Positions 15,415-59,484 of a stretch of 64,000 nt of DNA are shown one piece after another; the stretch's first letter is position 1; each line of letters starts with the position of its first letter. The notes beneath the pieces were generated by a model. That model saw only the letters and a list, made by a program, of their open reading frames with translations, was not told the origin of the DNA and did no database searches. The stretch is from NCBI RefSeq assembly GCF_028745505.1, contig NZ_JAQZZL010000001.1, forward strand, positions 1,795,818-1,859,817, written 5' to 3'. The DNA comes from Lentisphaera marina. GTDB lineage: Bacteria; Verrucomicrobiota; Lentisphaeria; Lentisphaerales; Lentisphaeraceae. The position numbers and the translations under genes are program-made.

Positions 15415-16508
15415 TACTTTCTTCCTTCCTCTTTGTTGACGGTGTCGGTGTTTTCTAGGGGGACTAAATCAAGTCCTAGGTCTTCGACGGGGACTAAGTA
15501 TTTGCCTTTACTATCCTCAGGACGAACAATAATACGGCGAATTGAACGATCTTTAGCTTGCGGCGCTAAAGGAGTAAAGATTTGCTGTTCGAGTTTTGTC
15601 TGAAGTTCATCATTGCGTTTTTTAGTGATTTGTCTAGTCTTGAGCTCGCCTTTGTAGTTCGAGTCAAGTTTCTCAAGTTTAGCCTCAGCTGCTAAAGCCG
15701 CTTCAGTATCAGGGTAGTTTACTACAACTTTGTAGAGGTAGCGCTTAGCGGCATCAGGTCGAGAATGAACTGGATCCAAATAAAATAAGGCCAAGTTGTA
15801 AATTCGTTCAGCTTCAATTTCACGAAGGCTTTGAAGTTGGTCTTTAGCTTCAGCTAAAAGGGGGTGCTTATTGTATTGATTAATGAATAATCTAAGCTGA
15901 GTTTTAGCTTCGCGCATGAGCTCGAGGTTGCCGTGAATACCTCTCATACTATGGGTATTAAACTGGGCAATATAAATTCGTGCGTAACCCGCTTCGTCGG
16001 ATTTTGGATAGGTGGCAATCAGTTTATGATAAGTGCTCATGGCAGCAATATCATCTTTGTCATCTTGTTGGAGCATACCAATTCTCAGCATTGAAGTTGC
16101 CGCACCCTTTGAGTATGGAGCTTGTGCAATGAGTTCCTCGTAAAATTCGATGGCTTCTTCTGATGAACCGAAGAAGTTTGAACTACCACTCTTTTCATAA
16201 CGAGTATTAGAGATCTCGAACTGCAGATTCAAAACTTTTTCATAATCAATTTCAAAATTGTAGTCATCAACTAATTCTTTTAAAATATCGAAGGCGTCTT
16301 CGAGTTCGCCTTGGTGATAAAGTGCTTTAGCTTTAAAATATTTGAGAGTTGCAATCTGCTTGCGGTTGGTTTCAGTAAGTAAAGCCTCATTAACGTCAAT
16401 AATCACTTGATCATATTTTTCGAAGGCTAAGTTCTCTTCAATTTTTTTATTGACTGTTTGAGCAAAAATTAATTGGCTCATCAAAATCAATAATATAAAG
16501 TATTTCAC
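15414..16508 (-). CDS. Secreted TPR-repeat protein, BamD/YbgF-like
   Basis: Protein of 364 residues with a signal peptide (1-16) and tetratricopeptide-like helices. Recognisable repeats include EEAIEFYEELIAQAPYSKGA, AMSTYHKLIATYPKSDEAGY and RYLYKVVVNYPDTEAALAAE. This pattern occurs in outer-membrane assembly factors such as BamD, but the length and lack of a clear lipobox leave the exact role open. The start is GTG 16508, overlapping the kinase stop. The flanking LptE-like gene supports an envelope role. The C-terminus is charged and ends in a Lys/Glu-rich tail. Confidence 0.75.
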   Translation of the reverse strand: MKYFILLILMSQLIFAQTVNKKIEENLAFEKYDQVIIDVNEALLTETNRKQIATLKYFKAKALYHQGELEDAFDILKELVDDYNFEIDYEKVLNLQFEISNTRYEKSGSSNFFGSSEEAIEFYEELIAQAPYSKGAATSMLRIGMLQQDDKDDIAAMSTYHKLIATYPKSDEAGYARIYIAQFNTHSMRGIHGNLELMREAKTQLRLFINQYNKHPLLAEAKDQLQSLREIEAERIYNLALFYLDPVHSRPDAAKRYLYKVVVNYPDTEAALAAEAKLEKLDSNYKGELKTRQITKKRNDELQTKLEQQIFTPLAPQAKDRSIRRIIVRPEDSKGKYLVPVEDLGLDLVPLENTDTVNKEEGRK

Positions 16509-17824
16509 GGCTGCGAGGCTCCTTTTTGCAGTATGTCTAAAGATGACTCGAACTGAAAGCCCCTCGCTTGGAGGTCTTGAAGTCGGCCAACTATAAATTT
16601 TAAATTCTTTTTATCAGCTTTATGTAAATCGTTTTTATGCATTTGCAACTTCAATCTAACCGCATTTAAAGCCTCTTCTGAAGGCTGTGTACGATTTAAC
16701 ATCATGCAACACATTTGTACATCCTTATTCACTACCTCAGATTTGTAATTATTAAGGTAAAGGAAAATAGTCACGGATGAGCAAAGCGCAAATAGACATA
16801 TTAGCAGTAAAGCTTTTATCAGCGCATTCTTTTTAACTTTTTTGTGGAACGAATCAAGTTCTTCGCTTAAATGAATCGCATCTTGGTAGCGCTTGTCGGG
16901 GATTTTATCGAGGCAACGGCGACATATCTTTTCTAAAGTGGGATGTATGAGTCTGCCACCACGACCGCGCTTTGGGAATGCAGGGGTGGTGTTTTTTATT
17001 TCATTAAAGATCTGTCGAAAATTGGTGGAAGTCTCGTTGGTGAAAGGATGAGTGCCGTAAAGAATTTCGTAGAGGATAATTCCCATGGCAAATACATCAG
17101 TTCCTCGGTTCGTGCTTCGTCCCAAACCTAGAGTTTGTTCTGGCGCCATGTAAGCGGGGGTTCCACTGATTTCGCCATTCATTGTTAGGCGAATATCCCC
17201 TTTGTCTTCAAAGCGGCTGACAGCTTTCTCTTCAGGCATCGGATCGTGTTGTGGCTCTTGTTCATTTAAGTTGCGAGCTAAACCCCAGTCTAATAAGAGA
17301 ACGCGTTGGTATTCGTCCACCATGATGTTCTCTGGTTTGATGTCACGATGAATGATGTTGTTTTCGTGGGCGTAGGCTAGGGTATGACAAGTTGTTTTGA
17401 AGATTTCTAATAAGTCAGTGAGGGTACTGTCATCGTAGATCTCGCGCAATGTTTTTCCCGTGACAATGGGCATCGAATAAAAAACATCGTTGTTACCAAT
17501 TTTTCCTAGGTTATAAACGGGGATGATTCCAGGGTGCTGCATGTACGCCATGATCAAGGCTTCGTTGATGAAGCGCTGTGAAACTTTGACCTTCTTTTTG
17601 TACTGATCTTTAAGGATCTTTAGTGCAACGCTACGACCGAGCATGAGGTCACGGGCTTTTACAATAGTGGAGTTACCACCACGGCCAATAATTTTTCTAA
17701 CTCGGTAGCGGTCGTTGAGGTCAGGGAGGCTGTCAAATATATCTAAATAATCATGTTCCTGGGAACTGCTATGAAAGTCGTCTTCAGCAAGTTCCTTATT
17801 ATAGATTGTTTGAGCAACGTCCAT
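16505..17824 (-). CDS. Membrane-anchored Ser/Thr protein kinase (canonical catalytic residues)
   Basis: Hanks-type kinase of 439 residues. The glycine loop GRGGNSTIVKARD begins at about 47, the beta-3 lysine is Lys69 in VALKIL, the catalytic loop is HRDIKPEN, and the metal motif is DWGLAR instead of DFG, as is common in this phylum. GTPAYMAPEQ marks the activation-loop end. One membrane helix at about 335-360 (LLLICLFALCSSVTIFLYL) is followed by a short extracytoplasmic domain. ATG 17824 has AGGA upstream. Its substrates are unknown; co-oriented envelope genes follow directly. Compare the atypical kinase at 56831-58900. Confidence 0.93.
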   Translation of the reverse strand: MDVAQTIYNKELAEDDFHSSSQEHDYLDIFDSLPDLNDRYRVRKIIGRGGNSTIVKARDLMLGRSVALKILKDQYKKKVKVSQRFINEALIMAYMQHPGIIPVYNLGKIGNNDVFYSMPIVTGKTLREIYDDSTLTDLLEIFKTTCHTLAYAHENNIIHRDIKPENIMVDEYQRVLLLDWGLARNLNEQEPQHDPMPEEKAVSRFEDKGDIRLTMNGEISGTPAYMAPEQTLGLGRSTNRGTDVFAMGIILYEILYGTHPFTNETSTNFRQIFNEIKNTTPAFPKRGRGGRLIHPTLEKICRRCLDKIPDKRYQDAIHLSEELDSFHKKVKKNALIKALLLICLFALCSSVTIFLYLNNYKSEVVNKDVQMCCMMLNRTQPSEEALNAVRLKLQMHKNDLHKADKKNLKFIVGRLQDLQARGFQFESSLDILQKGASQP

Positions 17825-51927: not shown

Positions 51928-53256
51928 TTAGCTGAAGATTTCGCCTGGAAGTTTACCAGTGCTGTCAGAGAATTTACTTCTTTGGACACCCGCAGAATTA
52001 AGCATGCTAACAAAGAGGTTCGTCATTGGGGTCTTATTTTCAAATCTTTGGTAAGATCCATGTTTGATACCCATGTTTTTACCACCAGCAAGAACGAGAG
52101 GTAAGTTACGTGCATTATGTGTATGTGCTTGTGAACTACCGTATAGTACTTGGGTATTATCCAGAATTGAACCGTGTTCATCCTTAACTTCTTTCATACG
52201 ACCTAAGAAGTAAGCGTATTGCTGTACGAGCCAGTTGTCGTAAGTGGACCAAAGCTTTGGGTCATTTGAGTGCGATATACCGTGATGACCTTTTTTAGCA
52301 CCAATGGCAAGTTTAGGATAGTTTTCACCAAAGCCCATACCATCTTCACGAGCAATTTGATAAGTCACAACGCGAGTTAAATCCATTTCATAAGCGAGTA
52401 CGATGAGGTCATACATGGAACGAATATAAGTCTCGGCGTTCTTTGCGGGATCTAAATCGAAGTTCAATTTACTGTAATCAGCTTTCTTGAGTGGTATGTC
52501 GAGCCATTCTTCATTTTTTCTAATTTGCTTTTCAACAGAATTAAGTGAAGTGAGATATTGATCCATCTTCTCTTTATCGCTCTTGCCAAGTTTTCTCTGT
52601 AGGTCTTTACTATTGCCAAAAACGAGGTCGACAATTTTACGGCCGCGTTGAAGTTCTTTTCGACGTGCCTCTGTCGAACCAGTACCATTGGGATTAAAGT
52701 AGCGCTCAAAGATCTCTCTGTGGCGGTGCTCAGTTGGGATTGCGTTACCCATTGAGTCGAATGAGAGTGAAGTAACACGCGATTTGTAGCCGACGCCACC
52801 ATCTGCGGAAAGCGCAAAAGAGGGATAACGTGTACTTTTACCAATATGTCCTGCAGCGACTTGGTCGATGGAAATATTGTTTTTATAAGTATTACGAACA
52901 TCGCCACCAGTTAACCAAGTATCACCAGCAATATGACCAAGTAGTTGACGAGAACGCGGGTGAGAGAGTCCACCGAGAATTGTCATATCATCTCTGAAAC
53001 CATTGAGAGGTTCCAAAGAAAAATTATTTTTATAATCGCGACCCTCTTGGTCAGGGAAAAAACGATACTGTTTGGTTTCTTCTTTGATCTTACCTGGTTC
53101 ACAAGCACCATTAGGGAAGTAAAGGAAGCACATGCGTTTTGGTGCTTCACCTTTGTTCTGGCTTGCTCCCATTGCTTCCAAGTAAGGAAGTGCGCAAGCT
53201 ACGCCTGTTCCGCGGAGAAATGTACGTCTATCTAAATGCCATGATTTTTTGCTCAT
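51928..53256 (-). CDS. DUF1552 family secreted protein, second copy
   Basis: Protein of 442 residues, paralogue of the gene at 1486-2781. A twin-arginine-like start (HLDRRTFLRGTGVACAL), ILGGLSHPRS, MDQYLTSLNSVEKQI and a late SSQAHTHNARNLPLVLAGGK are shared. It follows the DUF1592-type gene by 12 bases, so gene order is reversed compared with the first pair, where DUF1552 comes first. Its chemical role is unknown. Confidence 0.9.
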   Translation of the reverse strand: MSKKSWHLDRRTFLRGTGVACALPYLEAMGASQNKGEAPKRMCFLYFPNGACEPGKIKEETKQYRFFPDQEGRDYKNNFSLEPLNGFRDDMTILGGLSHPRSRQLLGHIAGDTWLTGGDVRNTYKNNISIDQVAAGHIGKSTRYPSFALSADGGVGYKSRVTSLSFDSMGNAIPTEHRHREIFERYFNPNGTGSTEARRKELQRGRKIVDLVFGNSKDLQRKLGKSDKEKMDQYLTSLNSVEKQIRKNEEWLDIPLKKADYSKLNFDLDPAKNAETYIRSMYDLIVLAYEMDLTRVVTYQIAREDGMGFGENYPKLAIGAKKGHHGISHSNDPKLWSTYDNWLVQQYAYFLGRMKEVKDEHGSILDNTQVLYGSSQAHTHNARNLPLVLAGGKNMGIKHGSYQRFENKTPMTNLFVSMLNSAGVQRSKFSDSTGKLPGEIFS

Positions 53257-53268
53257 TTGTCAGTTTCC

Positions 53269-56200
53269 TTATCTTCTAGTAAAAATATCGTGAGAAATAA
53301 TGTTTTTAACAAGGTCTTTAAAGCCATAGTTTTGCTCCATTGTCTTGTTGACGATTTGATCGATGTCCTCGTTGTCCATGTAGGAGAGGTCGCGACCGAG
53401 AGAGTAAGCTAAGAGGTGTTTTGTAACCGACCGAGTTACATTCTCTTGTTTGTTTTCTTTAATGTATTTTTTGAGTTCATTAATGCCATTGAGTTTAGTT
53501 CCATCAATGAGTTCAGTTTTTGCATCAGCTTTTGTTTGGAATTTACCAACCGCATCGTAATTCTCGAAAACTACTCCCCAAGGGTCGATTTTTAAGTGGC
53601 AGTCAACGCACGATGATTTTTCACGGTGTAGCTCGAGTTGTTGTTTAATAGTTAAACCCTTGAAGCTAGGTTCTTCTGAATCGAGAGCAGGTACATTTGG
53701 TGGTGGGGGTGGTGGCTCGTCATCAAGAAGTTTTTCCATGAGCCATACACCACGCTTAATGGGGTGAGCTTGAACGCCATCAGAGTGACCTGTAAGGAAA
53801 CTGGCTTGAGTAATGAGGCCTCCACGATTGTATTCAGGTTTTAGTGGCACTGGACGGAAGTTAGTACCTTGAACTCCCTGGATACCATAGAATTCTGCTA
53901 AGTTTTGATTCAGCATAGCGAAGTCAGAATCGACGAAGTTTTGAAGACTCATATTGTTTTTGAGGATATGACTGATGAAAGCACGAGTTTCTTTAGCCAT
54001 GTCGTCTTTAACAAAACGTGTGTAATCAGCGTATTTTTTGACGTCAATTGTCATGTCTTCAAGACGATCCATACGTAACCATTCGCGAGAGAACGTGTCG
54101 ATAAATTTATCACTTTTTGGATCTTGGATCATACGATCAATTTCTTTATCCAAATTAGTAGATAGACGGAATGAATAAGCTAAGTCAAGAAGACGTTTAT
54201 CTGGAGGTTGGTTCCACAAGAAGTAAGAGAGGCGGTTAGCTAACTGAAATTCGTTAACACGTGGAGTTCCTTGCTGCTTTTCTTGTCCTGGTTCAGCCAA
54301 GAAAAGGAATTCTGGTGAACAGAGTACAGCAACAAGAGCTTCTTTAACGCCATCTTCATAACGAGGGAAGTCACCCTTAACCGATTTCCAGAAGTTATAA
54401 TAGATATTTACGGTTTGTGCATCAACCTTTTTGCGGAAAGCCTTGTTGATGAAGCTTGTTAACACTTCTTTTGTATAGAGTTCTTTGTTGTTTTTATTCT
54501 TAGAATCAAAGAAAATGCTTTTGTAAGAAGCCATGGGCCATGCAGGGATATAGGGAGCTTCAAACTCAATACGTTCAATCTTGATTGGCGGACCAGAAAG
54601 GTTTGCATCTTTCACAAGGTGATCGTTATAGATCCCAACAATCATGATGTTGGCGAGTGGATTTTTTGTGTTGGGGTTGATTACCGGTACCGGCAGATTT
54701 TCTAAACGTCCCTTAAATACTTTTGTTTCTGATTTGCCTATAGGAGTATTGAAACTCTTTGATTCGTCAAAGAGTTTGTGGTCCATGCCATCATCGGCAC
54801 GAGTTCCAAGGAAAGCTCGTAGTGATGCCGGTACAGTTTTATACTTTTCTTTACTTGCAAGGTATTTGTTATAAGCGTTTTCTTTTATTCGAATATCGCC
54901 TGTTTTATCACTAGCAGGAATAATACTTAATTCATAAAAATCTATAAATTCATTTGACTTGAGGTTAAGTGAGTAATCTCCAGCCTTTAATTTACCGAAA
55001 GCTACAGTTGTTTTAATGGTAGTCGCTTTCTCATTTTGTTGGTTGTTGCTATTTAATGATTGTTTCGCAATTACTTTCTCCCCCTGAGAATAAGAAAGTT
55101 CAGCACCATTAATACGATCTTCATAACCTACGCGATTATATATCTTTATAGATTCAATAATCTGAGGAGATTTAAACTCTACCTTAATCCAAGGATTATC
55201 TTCGAACTTTGTATGGCCAAAGTTATTTATGTCGCCGTCCATGAAGGCTTTAGGTCCCATGCTGCTATTGTATTGCGAGCTCATTGTAATCTTAAAATCT
55301 TTAATTTTCTGTTTTTTAGGACCGTAGATTTCCAATTCGGATAAGTTGATTGCCTTATGTTTACCAGGGATTTTAATCAAGAATGAATTTACTTTTTTAT
55401 TAGCCGATCCCTTAACAAGAATGGGGCCTTTAGTTACAGGTTCCTTTTTGTGTTCAAACTGTTGTTTGATATGGTAGTTGTTAAGGGTAAAAGCAAATTT
55501 ACTTTTTTTATCTTTATAACTAACGGCACTACGAGTAACACCGATGTGATAATAACCATCTTTTGGGATTTTGAATTTTACATTAGCTGTAGAAACGGAA
55601 CCTTTGTCGTCAGCAACTAATTTATCACCTTCAAGCTTGAAGTTGTTAATCATTTTAAAGTCTTTTGCTTTAAATGTTTGCGTGCCATCTAGGGTCTTAG
55701 ATTTTTTAACTGGTAAAACTTCGTTATTTACTCTTTTAATATTATTAAGGTAGAACTCACTGACAGGAAGGGGAAGAGAGTTACTCGCCGTGATACGGAA
55801 AACAAAATCGCCTTCGCTTGGGAAATGTTTACGGATGAGCATTTTGAGGTTTGGGTTAGCTCCTTGCCAAGATTTAGGAGCCGTTTCTTTGTGTGGTTTA
55901 GAGCCATGTAAAACCATGCCATCTTTTACCATGCCCCAACGACTACGATCGTCAGAACCACGGAAACCAACCATTATGTTTTGTTTTAATTCTTCAACTT
56001 TTAAACCATTAGGTGCAATTTCGTTATCGGCCAATTCCTTATTGTTTTCATCAAGAATAGAAATTTTGTAGTTTTTACCATCGAGATTTATGGACTGAAA
56101 GCCTGCTGCTTTAGCATAGACTTTTTTACTTGAATTTTGTGCAAAATCGAGACGGTACTTACTCACCGCAGGTTTTTCTTTGGGACCAATAGCTTTGTCG

Positions 56201-56745
56201 AGTGCTTCATGGGCAATCTGTTGGTAGTATTCAATATGAAGTGGTGAGATCGTCATGCTTTCACCAGCATTAGTGAACCCCATATGAGATTTAGCTTCAG
56301 GTGGAAGCGTTTTCGCAAAATCGATATCGAGCCCAAGTAATTTTTGAAGTGAATTACTGTATTGATCGCGAGTTAAACGACGAACAACAGTTTTTGCTTC
56401 GCCGCGCTTCTTCTCTTTAGCGAGCTTAAGGTTGACAGTCATCCAATCAACGATTTTTCTACGCTCATCATCGCTAGGCTGCTTGACGTCATCGGGTGGC
56501 ATATCGGCTGTATTGATAACGTCGAGAGCAGCGTGCCATTTTTCAGCATCTTTACCATTGATGATATCTGGGTCAAGCATGTCTAAACGAACTTCGCCTT
56601 TCTGTTTGCGCTCGCCATGACAGCGGATACAAAATTTTTCTAGGAGGGGTTTGATTTCTTTGTCGTAGTTGTGAGGGGATTCAGCTGCAGATAGACTAGG
56701 TAGTGTCATCATTGCGGCAAAAAGGCTGTAGATTTTTTTCTTCAT
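53269..56745 (-). CDS. Large DUF1587-DUF1592-DUF1588-DUF1585 cytochrome-like protein with discoidin-like insert
   Basis: Protein of about 1158 residues. After a signal peptide come a heme motif CIRCHG (about 39-44), DUF1587 (VVRRLTRDQYSNSLQKLLGL), and a long middle with a galactose-binding/F5-F8 type C-like part (INLSELEIYGP, NPWIKVEFKSPQIIESIKIY). DUF1592 (ANRLSYFLWNQPP), DUF1588 (RGGLITQASFLTGHSDG, then PPPPPP), the motif CVDCHL at about Cys1046, and DUF1585 follow. ATG 56745 (MKKKIY) has GGAAG in front; ATG 56757 would add four residues. About 300 residues longer than the copy at 2781-5333. Confidence 0.9.
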   Translation of the reverse strand: MKKKIYSLFAAMMTLPSLSAAESPHNYDKEIKPLLEKFCIRCHGERKQKGEVRLDMLDPDIINGKDAEKWHAALDVINTADMPPDDVKQPSDDERRKIVDWMTVNLKLAKEKKRGEAKTVVRRLTRDQYSNSLQKLLGLDIDFAKTLPPEAKSHMGFTNAGESMTISPLHIEYYQQIAHEALDKAIGPKEKPAVSKYRLDFAQNSSKKVYAKAAGFQSINLDGKNYKISILDENNKELADNEIAPNGLKVEELKQNIMVGFRGSDDRSRWGMVKDGMVLHGSKPHKETAPKSWQGANPNLKMLIRKHFPSEGDFVFRITASNSLPLPVSEFYLNNIKRVNNEVLPVKKSKTLDGTQTFKAKDFKMINNFKLEGDKLVADDKGSVSTANVKFKIPKDGYYHIGVTRSAVSYKDKKSKFAFTLNNYHIKQQFEHKKEPVTKGPILVKGSANKKVNSFLIKIPGKHKAINLSELEIYGPKKQKIKDFKITMSSQYNSSMGPKAFMDGDINNFGHTKFEDNPWIKVEFKSPQIIESIKIYNRVGYEDRINGAELSYSQGEKVIAKQSLNSNNQQNEKATTIKTTVAFGKLKAGDYSLNLKSNEFIDFYELSIIPASDKTGDIRIKENAYNKYLASKEKYKTVPASLRAFLGTRADDGMDHKLFDESKSFNTPIGKSETKVFKGRLENLPVPVINPNTKNPLANIMIVGIYNDHLVKDANLSGPPIKIERIEFEAPYIPAWPMASYKSIFFDSKNKNNKELYTKEVLTSFINKAFRKKVDAQTVNIYYNFWKSVKGDFPRYEDGVKEALVAVLCSPEFLFLAEPGQEKQQGTPRVNEFQLANRLSYFLWNQPPDKRLLDLAYSFRLSTNLDKEIDRMIQDPKSDKFIDTFSREWLRMDRLEDMTIDVKKYADYTRFVKDDMAKETRAFISHILKNNMSLQNFVDSDFAMLNQNLAEFYGIQGVQGTNFRPVPLKPEYNRGGLITQASFLTGHSDGVQAHPIKRGVWLMEKLLDDEPPPPPPNVPALDSEEPSFKGLTIKQQLELHREKSSCVDCHLKIDPWGVVFENYDAVGKFQTKADAKTELIDGTKLNGINELKKYIKENKQENVTRSVTKHLLAYSLGRDLSYMDNEDIDQIVNKTMEQNYGFKDLVKNIISHDIFTRR

Positions 56746-56830
56746 CAAAACTTCCATGCTTCTTTAATAATTAAATATATGAAGGTTTATGAAGCTAAAG
56801 AGCTGGGGTTAACAGCTAGTTTAAAAAAAA

Positions 56831-58900
56831 TTAAAAATGATTAATAGAGAGATTTAGACTAGAAGGGACTGTTAACTTTTGGGCCTCATTAAACTGTGTT
56901 TCTGAGAGTATGAGGTTTTTAAGTTGGTTCATGTTTAAAATATCTTGCGTGATTTTGATGGGAGAAAGGCTTAAGTCAAGATTGGGGACACTGATGGATG
57001 TGAAGTGTTGAGGTAGATTAGTCATATCCATGATTTTTAAATAATTAATAGGAAGAAAATTAAAATAAGTTTGAGTGACGCGCATGTTCGTAATGCGGTT
57101 GCCAAATGTATAGCCGATTTCTTTCAACTTTTCACCACTTATTTCAAGGGCCTTGACTTCGGGGTGGTATTTAAAGTTTGTACTATCCCATTTCGGGTTG
57201 GAGGCCTGGATGAGGTTCTGGATGAAGCTTAATTTATCATTAAGGCTAGGTTTGGTGATAAGGTAGCAATTCAATACTTTAAATTTAACATACTGGTCTT
57301 TGAGTGAAACGAGGTCTTTGGTGAATTCGTTGATTAGATTTTCAGGAACACTTTCTCCTTCAGGGATGAGCTTAGAATACTTTTCGCTGAGTTTTTGTAT
57401 TTCAGTGTTTTTTAAATCAGTCGCTTGAGCAACATCAAAGTCTCGCTTTGATTGATGAAAGTTTTGCATCATGAAATGAGCTCGGGCACGTTTAGAATAT
57501 AGATTTTTATTATTGGGGTCAGCCTCGATGAGTCGATCTAAATAAAGAAAAGTCCTAGACATATGCTCAGTCGGGTCCTTATCCAATGATGAATAGAATA
57601 GGTAACTCAAGACATCACTTTCTAGACGGTTTGAATGATCTTGGATGACGTGGTTTCGCCATTCTCTTTCTTTCTCTAAAAGGGCTAAAGCTTTATCAGT
57701 ACGTTCTTTTTCTGTTTGGATCTCCAGCTGTTTTTTCTCTGCCAAGTCTCTAGCGACTTCAGCTTCTTTACGACGCTGTTCAATATTGAGGAAATAGACT
57801 GTCGTTAAAATCGCAATAATAATGATGAACGCGAGGACTATGTGGCACTGAGCTTTATTGCGTTTGTATAAGAGCTTAGATTGCCTCCAAAAATTGGGCT
57901 TGTCTGATGAGGGGGAAAAACCTAAAAGGTATTTTTGAATGTCTTCTCGGATAAGGTCAACTTTTTGATAGCGCTTGTATGTTTTTCCTTGCATAGCTTT
58001 GGTGATGATTGACTTTAAACCATCAGAAACCGTTTTGTCATCGGGGAAAGAGAATTCGCCTCTTAGATTATTTTTTATGACTTCATCATCATCATCAGTA
58101 TCAAAGGGGGAGTTCAAATAGAGTAAGCTATATAGCAGGCAGCCGAGAGAGTAGATATCAGATGCTTCATTGATTTCATCCTCTTTATGGATTTGTTCAG
58201 GAGCCATAAATCCTGGAGTTCCTTTTATCTCGCCTCGACTTGTGACATTGTTGAGGAAGTCAGGATTAAAGAGCAAGCCATCAAAACTATCATAATCTTT
58301 AGTTCCCACAATTTTCCCTAGTCCCCAATCGCAAACTAAGACTTCACCGAAACTACCAATCTGTATATTATCGGGTTTTAAATCAAGGTGAATGACTTTG
58401 TGTGAATGTGAGTAGGCAATGGCGTCACAAATTTTTAAGAAAATATTGAGTAGGGTATCTTGGGTGAATTTCTTTTGGTATTCTGTATTGCCCTTTTTAA
58501 GCTCTTGGATGATTTTTTTGAGTGAATCACCTTCTTTTAATTCCATGGTGAAAAATGGAGCACCCATCGGTCCAATTCCAACGTCGTAAACGGGGATGAT
58601 ATTGGGGTGGGTGAGTAGGGCAGTGAGGTGTGCTTCTCTAATAAAGGGATCGTAGAGTTCCTGTGAAGCTCGTTTAATAAGGCGAGCCATGGCAACTTGG
58701 CGTTTGGTAAGATGGTCGTAAACCTGAGAAATGCGTTTCATCCCTCCTTCTGCGACAAAACTTTCATCTGTGTAGCGTTGGTTATTCTCTAAGAGCTCTT
58801 GGTATAGGGGGGGGAGCTCACCGTCGATAACTTCGTCTTCGTTATCTTCAAATAGATCGATCAGTTTACGTGCACGATCAGCAATATGTTCGGAACTCAT
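56831..58900 (-). CDS. Atypical Ser/Thr kinase lacking the beta-3 lysine, with lysine in the glycine loop; membrane-anchored, sigma-coupled
   Basis: Protein of 689 residues. The glycine loop reads AEGGMKRISQVYD with Lys55; the beta-3 strand reads VAMARL, so Ala72 stands where VAxK kinases have Lys. The Lys55-Ala72 spacing of 17 equals that between WNK1 Lys233 and Cys250. Other catalytic parts are intact: Glu89 in helix C, HLDLKPDN (171-178), DWG (191-193), GTPGFMAPEQ. A membrane helix (about 350-370) is followed by a coiled-coil stretch (EVARDLAEKKQLEIQTEKER), a TPR-like part (LYSKRARAHFMMQNFHQSKR), and a leucine-rich-repeat-like tail. ATG overlaps the sigma stop as ATGA. Probably active and linked to that sigma factor. 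Confidence 0.9.
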   Translation of the reverse strand: MSSEHIADRARKLIDLFEDNEDEVIDGELPPLYQELLENNQRYTDESFVAEGGMKRISQVYDHLTKRQVAMARLIKRASQELYDPFIREAHLTALLTHPNIIPVYDVGIGPMGAPFFTMELKEGDSLKKIIQELKKGNTEYQKKFTQDTLLNIFLKICDAIAYSHSHKVIHLDLKPDNIQIGSFGEVLVCDWGLGKIVGTKDYDSFDGLLFNPDFLNNVTSRGEIKGTPGFMAPEQIHKEDEINEASDIYSLGCLLYSLLYLNSPFDTDDDDEVIKNNLRGEFSFPDDKTVSDGLKSIITKAMQGKTYKRYQKVDLIREDIQKYLLGFSPSSDKPNFWRQSKLLYKRNKAQCHIVLAFIIIIAILTTVYFLNIEQRRKEAEVARDLAEKKQLEIQTEKERTDKALALLEKEREWRNHVIQDHSNRLESDVLSYLFYSSLDKDPTEHMSRTFLYLDRLIEADPNNKNLYSKRARAHFMMQNFHQSKRDFDVAQATDLKNTEIQKLSEKYSKLIPEGESVPENLINEFTKDLVSLKDQYVKFKVLNCYLITKPSLNDKLSFIQNLIQASNPKWDSTNFKYHPEVKALEISGEKLKEIGYTFGNRITNMRVTQTYFNFLPINYLKIMDMTNLPQHFTSISVPNLDLSLSPIKITQDILNMNQLKNLILSETQFNEAQKLTVPSSLNLSINHF

Positions 58901-59484
58901 TTGCGTTCCATGTTTCGAGTTAGGTTGCGCATTTCGCTAATAAAGCAGGACTTGACTCGAGCCTTTAAGACTTTTACTGAAGCCAAGGCAATATCAAGTT
59001 TTTCAGCAATTTGGGAATTGGTGAAGCCGTCTAGACTCATCAAGAAGGCGTCGACAGCTTTGCCAGAAAAAACTTCTTTAACATGTTTTATGGCTTCCTC
59101 GGTGAGGTAGTTTTCCCATTCGTGTTGGATCATTAAATCGATATCATTTGTTTCTGTAACTCGATTTTCTTCACCTTCGAAAAAAGCATTTTCTTGTCGG
59201 CGATTTTCTTTGCGATAATGCTCATTTACTGAGTTGCGAATTACGGTGCTTAGCCAAGGGCGGAAACTGCCTCGTGAGCTATCGTAAGTGTTGATTTTTT
59301 TCCATAATTTAATGAGGATTTGTTGGGCTACGTCATCCGAAGTTGTGCCCTTTATGCCCATTTTTAGTATGATGTGGTAGATGAATCTGCCGTAGTAATC
59401 AACAAATTCTTTCCAGGCACTTTCGTCATCAGGATCGACTGCTCTGAGAAGGAGTGTTTTTCTTGTAATCCACTGATCAGTCAT
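58897..59484 (-). CDS. ECF-like sigma factor coupled to the Ser/Thr kinase
   Basis: Sigma factor of 195 residues with region 2 (SDDVAQQILIKLWKKI, FRPWLSTVIRNSVNEHYRK) and region 4 (FTNSQIAEKLDIALASVKVL). It shares EWENYLTEEA and SGKAVDAF with the sigma factor at 5345-5938. It overlaps the kinase gene by four bases, so the two are co-translated; kinase-coupled ECF factors are known in this superphylum. It lies upstream of the second DUF1552/DUF1592 operon. Confidence 0.9.
   Translation of the reverse strand: MTDQWITRKTLLLRAVDPDDESAWKEFVDYYGRFIYHIILKMGIKGTTSDDVAQQILIKLWKKINTYDSSRGSFRPWLSTVIRNSVNEHYRKENRRQENAFFEGEENRVTETNDIDLMIQHEWENYLTEEAIKHVKEVFSGKAVDAFLMSLDGFTNSQIAEKLDIALASVKVLKARVKSCFISEMRNLTRNMERK

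Follow-up and report, generated by a model that had tools for sequence, protein, structure and literature searches.

A large family of PknB-like bacterial membrane kinases with a WNK-type relocated lysine, probably catalytic and often paired with ECF sigma factors

The window, the 64,000-nucleotide stretch of Lentisphaera marina DNA analyzed here, encodes a membrane kinase that lacks the usual beta-3 lysine and carries a lysine in the glycine loop, a layout that is a conserved trait of a large bacterial family. The reading that we favor, at about three chances in four, is that one bacterial lineage independently made the lysine shift known from WNK and POMK, stayed catalytic (as we infer), and expanded into sigma-paired membrane receptor kinases.

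Position of the lysine in the window kinase

The kinase gene and its parts are as follows.

56831..58900, (-) strand: membrane Ser/Thr kinase of 689 aa, relocated-lysine family (ORF, Pfam, paralog alignment, and hydropathy)
57962..58768, (-) strand: kinase domain, aa 45-313 (Pfam PF00069, Pkinase, E=1.1e-38)
58736..58738, (-) strand: Lys55 codon, glycine loop/start of beta-2, proposed phosphate-binding lysine (93/93 relocated kinases; model)
58685..58687, (-) strand: Ala72 codon, normal beta-3 lysine position (sequence and alignment)
58634..58636, (-) strand: Glu89 codon, helix-C glutamate (alignment; helix C of the model)
58382..58390, (-) strand: HLD catalytic loop, aa 171-173, non-RD form (alignment)
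58361..58363, (-) strand: Gln180 codon, polar and class dependent, at what we take to be the position of PKA Leu173 (adenine floor), as mapped from the catalytic loop (alignment)
58322..58330, (-) strand: DWG metal-binding motif, aa 191-193 (alignment)
58196..58204, (-) strand: APE motif, aa 233-235 (sequence)
57788..57844, (-) strand: predicted transmembrane helix, about aa 353-371, C-terminal to the kinase domain (hydropathy 2.64)

The window kinase displays the Hanks-type traits of a Pkinase fold, HxD..N, DxG, APE, and a helix-C glutamate, but the VAxK lysine of beta-3 is absent, with Ala72 in its place. Its motifs are GGMKRI (residues 52 to 57, with Lys55), VAMARL (residues 69 to 74, with Ala72), and HLDLKPDN (residues 171 to 178). 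A sequence-only reading had described Glu89, HLD, Asn178, DWG, and APE as intact, which the translated ORF bears out, and had placed Lys55 in the glycine loop and Ala72 at the beta-3 position, which agrees with the sequence and with the alignment to PknB. Because of its kinship, the protein is classed as a variant Hanks-type (PknB-like) kinase, in which we infer that Lys55 functionally replaces the beta-3 lysine.

In WNK1, the lysine is Lys233 of the glycine loop and the beta-3 position is occupied by Cys250. The alignment of the window kinase with Mycobacterium tuberculosis PknB is gapless between the two positions, so that Lys55 corresponds to the third-glycine position, a serine in PknB, and Ala72 corresponds to the catalytic VAVK lysine. 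The spacing of 17 residues given in the sequence-only reading is correct, but it is the usual distance between these homologous positions, found in PknB as well, and is therefore no separate evidence of WNK likeness; it is the identity of the position that counts.

The AlphaFold2 model of residues 36 to 320 (mean pLDDT, 90.4) places Lys55 as the first residue of beta-2, Ala72 within beta-3, and Glu89 within helix C. Its best fold match in the PDB is PknB (1o6y). By sequence, profile, and fold, the closest solved kinases are the bacterial PknB, PknA, and StkP, with PknB matching at an E value of 5.5e-27 by sequence and 1.2e-53 by profile, and WNK is not among the best listed matches to solved kinases in any of the three comparisons.

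An either/or exchange of two lysines and its spread

The source genome has 98 PF00069 matches. Of the 85 unique kinases that could be aligned, 53 carry Lys55 without Lys72 and 32 carry Lys72 without Lys55. The relocated layout is thus the majority layout, and the earlier supposition that the change is not a general feature of the genome was wrong. The neighboring kinase on which that supposition drew does have the normal layout, but it belongs to the minority class.

16505..17824, (-) strand: comparator kinase of ordinary layout, with GRGGNS and VALKIL and a Ser at the glycine-loop position (alignment)

Lys55 is invariant across 28 diverse paralogs, whose pairwise identity has a median near 40%. 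Searching the source genome with a DNA pattern for this layout gave 44 matches, and the reversed-pattern control gave none. Two irregularities were noticed in this assembly. One is at L087 (G000:C1, near 2278176-2280050), where a kinase ORF begins within the C-lobe and a relocated-type N-lobe is found upstream of it, which may reflect a frameshift, a pseudogene, or a sequencing error. An identical kinase N-lobe sequence occurs in L086, at the end of contig C1, and in L014 on contig C3, so C1 and C3 may be overlapping or have a repeat in common.

A trait-blind sample of 262 kinases was gathered by the family profile or the A1 profile, with no trait pattern. It comprises 93 kinases with Lys55 only, 167 with Lys72 only, none with both, and 2 with neither, and Lys55 and the missing beta-3 lysine thus covary as a strict exchange. 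As A1 was built from relocated kinases, the class mix outside the source genome gives no frequency estimate, and the P value of a Fisher test on these counts would exaggerate the case because relocated kinases share descent. The key point is that no relocated member is without the lysine despite a median identity of about 40%. All 93 relocated kinases also retain Glu89, His171, Asp173, Asn178, Asp191, Trp192, and Gly193, while residue 72 is Ala in 91 of them, Val in 1, and Gly in 1. With the exchange strict, the trait conserved across a family, and the other catalytic residues kept, the WNK-like relocation first proposed from the single sequence holds. The two lysine-less kinases, L396 (3009-3857) and L400 (1-921), have lost the DFG aspartate too, with GFG for DFG. 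These two domains, which carry Glu in place of the beta-3 lysine and lie beside ordinary kinases in genomes of f2, a family of the same class as the source organism, are likely true pseudokinases.

Other positions distinguish the two classes. Residue 172 is Leu in 86/93 relocated kinases, replacing the HRD arginine to give the HLD of the window kinase, and Arg in 148/167 ordinary kinases. Residue 180 is mostly Gln, Arg, Asn, His, or Tyr in the relocated class and Met or Leu in the ordinary one, and Lys or Arg at 226 together with Gly at 230 marks the relocated activation segment. Remodeling of the ATP site thus extends to more than one place. The polar residue 180 may alter nucleotide preference and, together with the loss of the HRD arginine, might point to changed or poorer use of nucleotide.

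The origin of the exchange was examined in a tree of 127 kinases, with columns 55 and 72 blanked and WNK sequences left out. The free tree needed two changes and placed two ordinary kinases inside the relocated clade. A tree constrained to a single relocated clade had a log likelihood 48.6 higher than that of the free tree, with a p-AU of 0.912; one origin is therefore compatible with the data and preferred, with the relocated kinases as a single clade among bacterial kinases. A reversion to the ordinary layout is not claimed because the constrained tree scored better. With a single shared origin, columns 55 and 72 would covary through one event rather than many. Four relatives from the source organism's class (L188, L189, L192, and L399) have HLD and the (K/R)GTPGF activation segment and yet retain Gly55 and Lys72, a layout that looks like the state preceding the exchange. 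The earlier suggestion that the relocation arose independently of WNK is supported by this bacterial clade and by PknB being the nearest solved kinase in sequence and fold.

Within the source phylum, the layout pattern matched 107/388 genomes and the reversed pattern matched none; in about 14 of the 107, the only matches are fortuitous or to a recurrent sequence unrelated to the family, so roughly 90 are real. Hits in the genome pattern searches with the sequence GAMK..ST(E/T)D..SLVAKA, which match no kinase profile, were set aside. Relocated kinases number tens of copies in most members of the source organism's own family, often one or two in many families of its class, and they also occur elsewhere in the phylum, in several further families, among them Pontiellaceae (L091, G392). 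The two f2 genomes gave about 30 strong matches each, of ordinary layout in those examined. Among 50 genomes spread across many phyla, relocated kinases were found in the Pontiellaceae genome only. A profile search across genomes returned at least 80 loci, with one relocated kinase (the Pontiellaceae L091) among the matches listed, and a protein-query search of genome contigs found no relatives. In IMG/VR, the layout pattern matched 109 stretches, none of which encodes a kinase of the relocated family. Among 343 genomes of Planctomycetota (the phylum to which the Pirellulales MAG G394 belongs), pattern matches were confined to G476, with ten. These ten relocated kinases (L377, L381-L389) resemble those of the source organism's family and may reflect contamination or horizontal transfer.

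Sigma factors, membrane helix, and gene neighborhood

The window kinase gene is flanked by the following genes.

58897..59484, (-) strand: ECF sigma factor of 195 aa, its stop overlapping the kinase start (ATGA, 4 nt) (ORF and Pfam)
53269..56757, (-) strand: PSCyt1/PSD2-5 protein (DUF1592, DUF1588, DUF1587, DUF1585, and DUF1595), downstream, possible target gene
51928..53256, (-) strand: DUF1552 protein, downstream

The coupling to an ECF sigma factor, already noted for the window gene with its 4-nt overlap, extends to most paralogs. In the source genome, 42/54 relocated kinases (the 54 including one duplicate fragment) have an ECF sigma ORF no more than about 1 kb away, with both strands considered, versus 1/33 ordinary kinases; of these 42, 29 are upstream on the same strand and 13 are on other strands or sides. 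The remaining 12 of the 54 have no sigma gene nearby. Relocated kinases of other families are often sigma paired as well, and the single-copy type found in many class relatives has no sigma gene within about 1.2 kb. A membrane helix C-terminal to the kinase domain is present in 53/54 relocated paralogs.

Two further gene types recur within 1.25 kb of relocated kinases in the source genome (L031-L085). A sulfatase is found near 16/53 relocated versus 1/35 ordinary kinases, an enrichment measured against the ordinary kinases only (sulfatases may abound genome-wide), and a DUF1559-like gene is found near 17/53 relocated versus 0/35 ordinary kinases.

The window sigma factor has the sequence TTSDDVAQQ in region 2.2, and the acidic residues are retained across the sigma paralogs. 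This differs from the ECF43 trait of a QTTA-type threonine with an acid-free region 2.2; the known ECF43 phospho-switch therefore does not apply and was rejected as the mechanism. The sigma paralogs share Thr at position 7 (44/46) and Thr or Ser at position 10 (44/46), which are possible candidate phosphorylation sites or part of a structural motif.

Proposed mechanism, alternatives, and meaning

In the mechanism that we propose, a PknB-like (Hanks-type) lineage once swapped the lysine at beta-3 (position 72, now Ala) for one at the third-glycine position (55). Lys55 would take over from the beta-3 lysine, contacting the ATP phosphates and pairing with Glu89 of helix C, while Asp173, Asn178, and Asp191 would function as usual, giving an active kinase. 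The relocated kinases are, on these residues, probably catalytic. The family would then have grown to dozens of membrane kinases in the source genome, the majority with an ECF sigma gene as neighbor, in which the C-terminal region past the membrane helix would read a signal and switch the cytoplasmic kinase. The kinase would phosphorylate its partner sigma factor, which is plausible by analogy, or a factor controlling that sigma, and the phosphorylated partner would turn on nearby genes, such as those for sulfatases and DUF1559 proteins and, at the window locus, the PSD and DUF1552 genes. The signal, the targets, and the lysine geometry of this circuit are presumptive.

That the missing lysine marks a family of pseudokinases, which would at most bind nucleotide and serve the sigma factor as a switch or scaffold, Lys55 being retained for binding only, appears improbable. 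The absent beta-3 lysine, the polar residue 180, and the change from HRD to HLD would fit such a role, and a conserved site could serve binding without catalysis; however, the invariance of Glu89, Asp173, Asn178, and Asp191 in 93/93 relocated kinases is unexpected if phosphotransfer was lost, and both truly lysine-less kinases have lost the DFG aspartate as well. The pattern also matches none of the seven families in a review of bacterial pseudokinases (ActPs1-3, DLHK, GLW, CP1, and DYD), in which loss of the beta-3 lysine is accompanied by damage to HRD, DFG, or the helix-C glutamate, whereas in the relocated family the lysine position alone differs. From one sequence, a single gene that lost its beta-3 lysine and has a glycine-loop lysine by coincidence could have been entertained, but 53 kinases in the source genome and relatives in many families without exception, against a reversed-pattern control of zero, refute chance, which is now hardly conceivable. 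Origin by horizontal transfer of a eukaryotic WNK kinase would account for the identical lysine position but is exceedingly improbable: the best solved relatives are PknB, PknA, and StkP, with no WNK among the best listed, and, in a tree that contains no WNK sequences, the family is a clade among bacterial kinases, near the HLD/(K/R)GTPGF relatives with Gly55 and Lys72.

Within the reading of an active kinase, it is possible, though the less favored view, that the sigma factor is not the substrate, its gene being a coregulated neighbor of a kinase that acts on other proteins, for example, surface or secretion components. The region 2.2 that is not of the ECF43 type, the relocated kinases without a sigma neighbor, and the presence of DUF1559 and sulfatase genes as neighbors too are in line with this. 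Against it stand the 4-nt gene overlap and the adjacency bias (42/54 versus 1/33), the phosphorylation of sigma factors by known ECF-paired kinases (PMC13147305), and the prediction of kinase-linked ECF groups in Planctomycetes (PMC8999054). We regard it as very unlikely that the shift is regulatory as well as compensatory, in which case the pocket freed by the lysine would bind an anion, as in WNK, and these kinases, many of them sulfatase linked, would directly sense an ion such as chloride or sulfate at the ATP site, the polar residue 180 and the loss of the HRD arginine belonging to a single remodeled site.

Relocation as such is already known from WNK and POMK, and the new elements are the bacterial family, how large it is, and its coupling to sigma factors. 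The WNK lysine is reported to have left beta-3 for the glycine loop or beta-2 (PMC1821047, PMC4718504, PMC10211241), and a 2007 survey gave WNK as the sole functional eukaryotic-type kinase family without the lysine (PMC1821047). As in the bacterial family, a third-glycine lysine replaces that of beta-3 in WNK and the helix-C glutamate, the catalytic aspartate, and the metal-binding aspartate are kept; unlike it, WNK kinases are eukaryotic and soluble, with Cys at the vacated site and HRD, and have known chloride sensing and SPAK/OSR1 targets, whereas the bacterial kinases are PknB-like, membrane bound, and sigma linked, with Ala at the vacated site and HLD. In POMK (SGK196), the lysine has likewise shifted from beta-3 to beta-2 and is required for activity (PMC10211241), but other catalytic motifs have moved as well and the substrate is a sugar. 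Activity is reported to return in POMK when the lysine position is swapped. The CAK-chloro kinases, a largely prokaryotic kinase-like family, also moved the positive charge from 72 to 55 (Met72, Arg55) (PMC1821047), with the differences of a choline/aminoglycoside-kinase-like fold, Arg rather than Lys, and Phe for the helix-C glutamate.

PknB-type kinases are the closest by sequence, profile, and fold and share the membrane helix after the kinase domain, but PknB has a Lys72-type VAVK, HRD, and external PASTA repeats in contrast to Lys55 and HLD, and the window kinase has no Pfam match to PASTA repeats. PknT/EcfP and PknS/EcfK (ECF43) also pair a membrane Hanks-type kinase with a co-encoded ECF sigma factor, which the kinase phosphorylates (PMC13147305), but ECF43 sigma factors are without the acidic region 2.2 motif that those beside relocated kinases retain. 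For the planctomycete groups ECF59, 61, 62, and 217, from the same superphylum, ECF control by linked kinases is predicted and no lysine shift is described (PMC8999054).

The literature search, which extended to sources other than an atlas of 42 bacterial kinase families and a 2019 pseudokinase survey, found no bacterial Hanks-type family with this exchange. The 2019 survey is quoted as the source for kinomes in which pseudokinases reach 67%, and some such kinome could represent the relocated group counted by a three-residue rule. A kinome survey of the superphylum retained only domains with the K, D, and D residues (PMC11032199), a test that would score 53/85 source-genome kinases as dead. 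With the relocated lysine in more than half of these kinases, lysine-based catalogues would therefore list a large, probably working family as dead. Its intact catalytic residues and close ordinary sister kinases make it a natural experiment on moving a catalytic residue, and its gene neighborhoods point to an extensive, as yet unstudied layer of regulation by sigma factors that is partly sulfatase linked.
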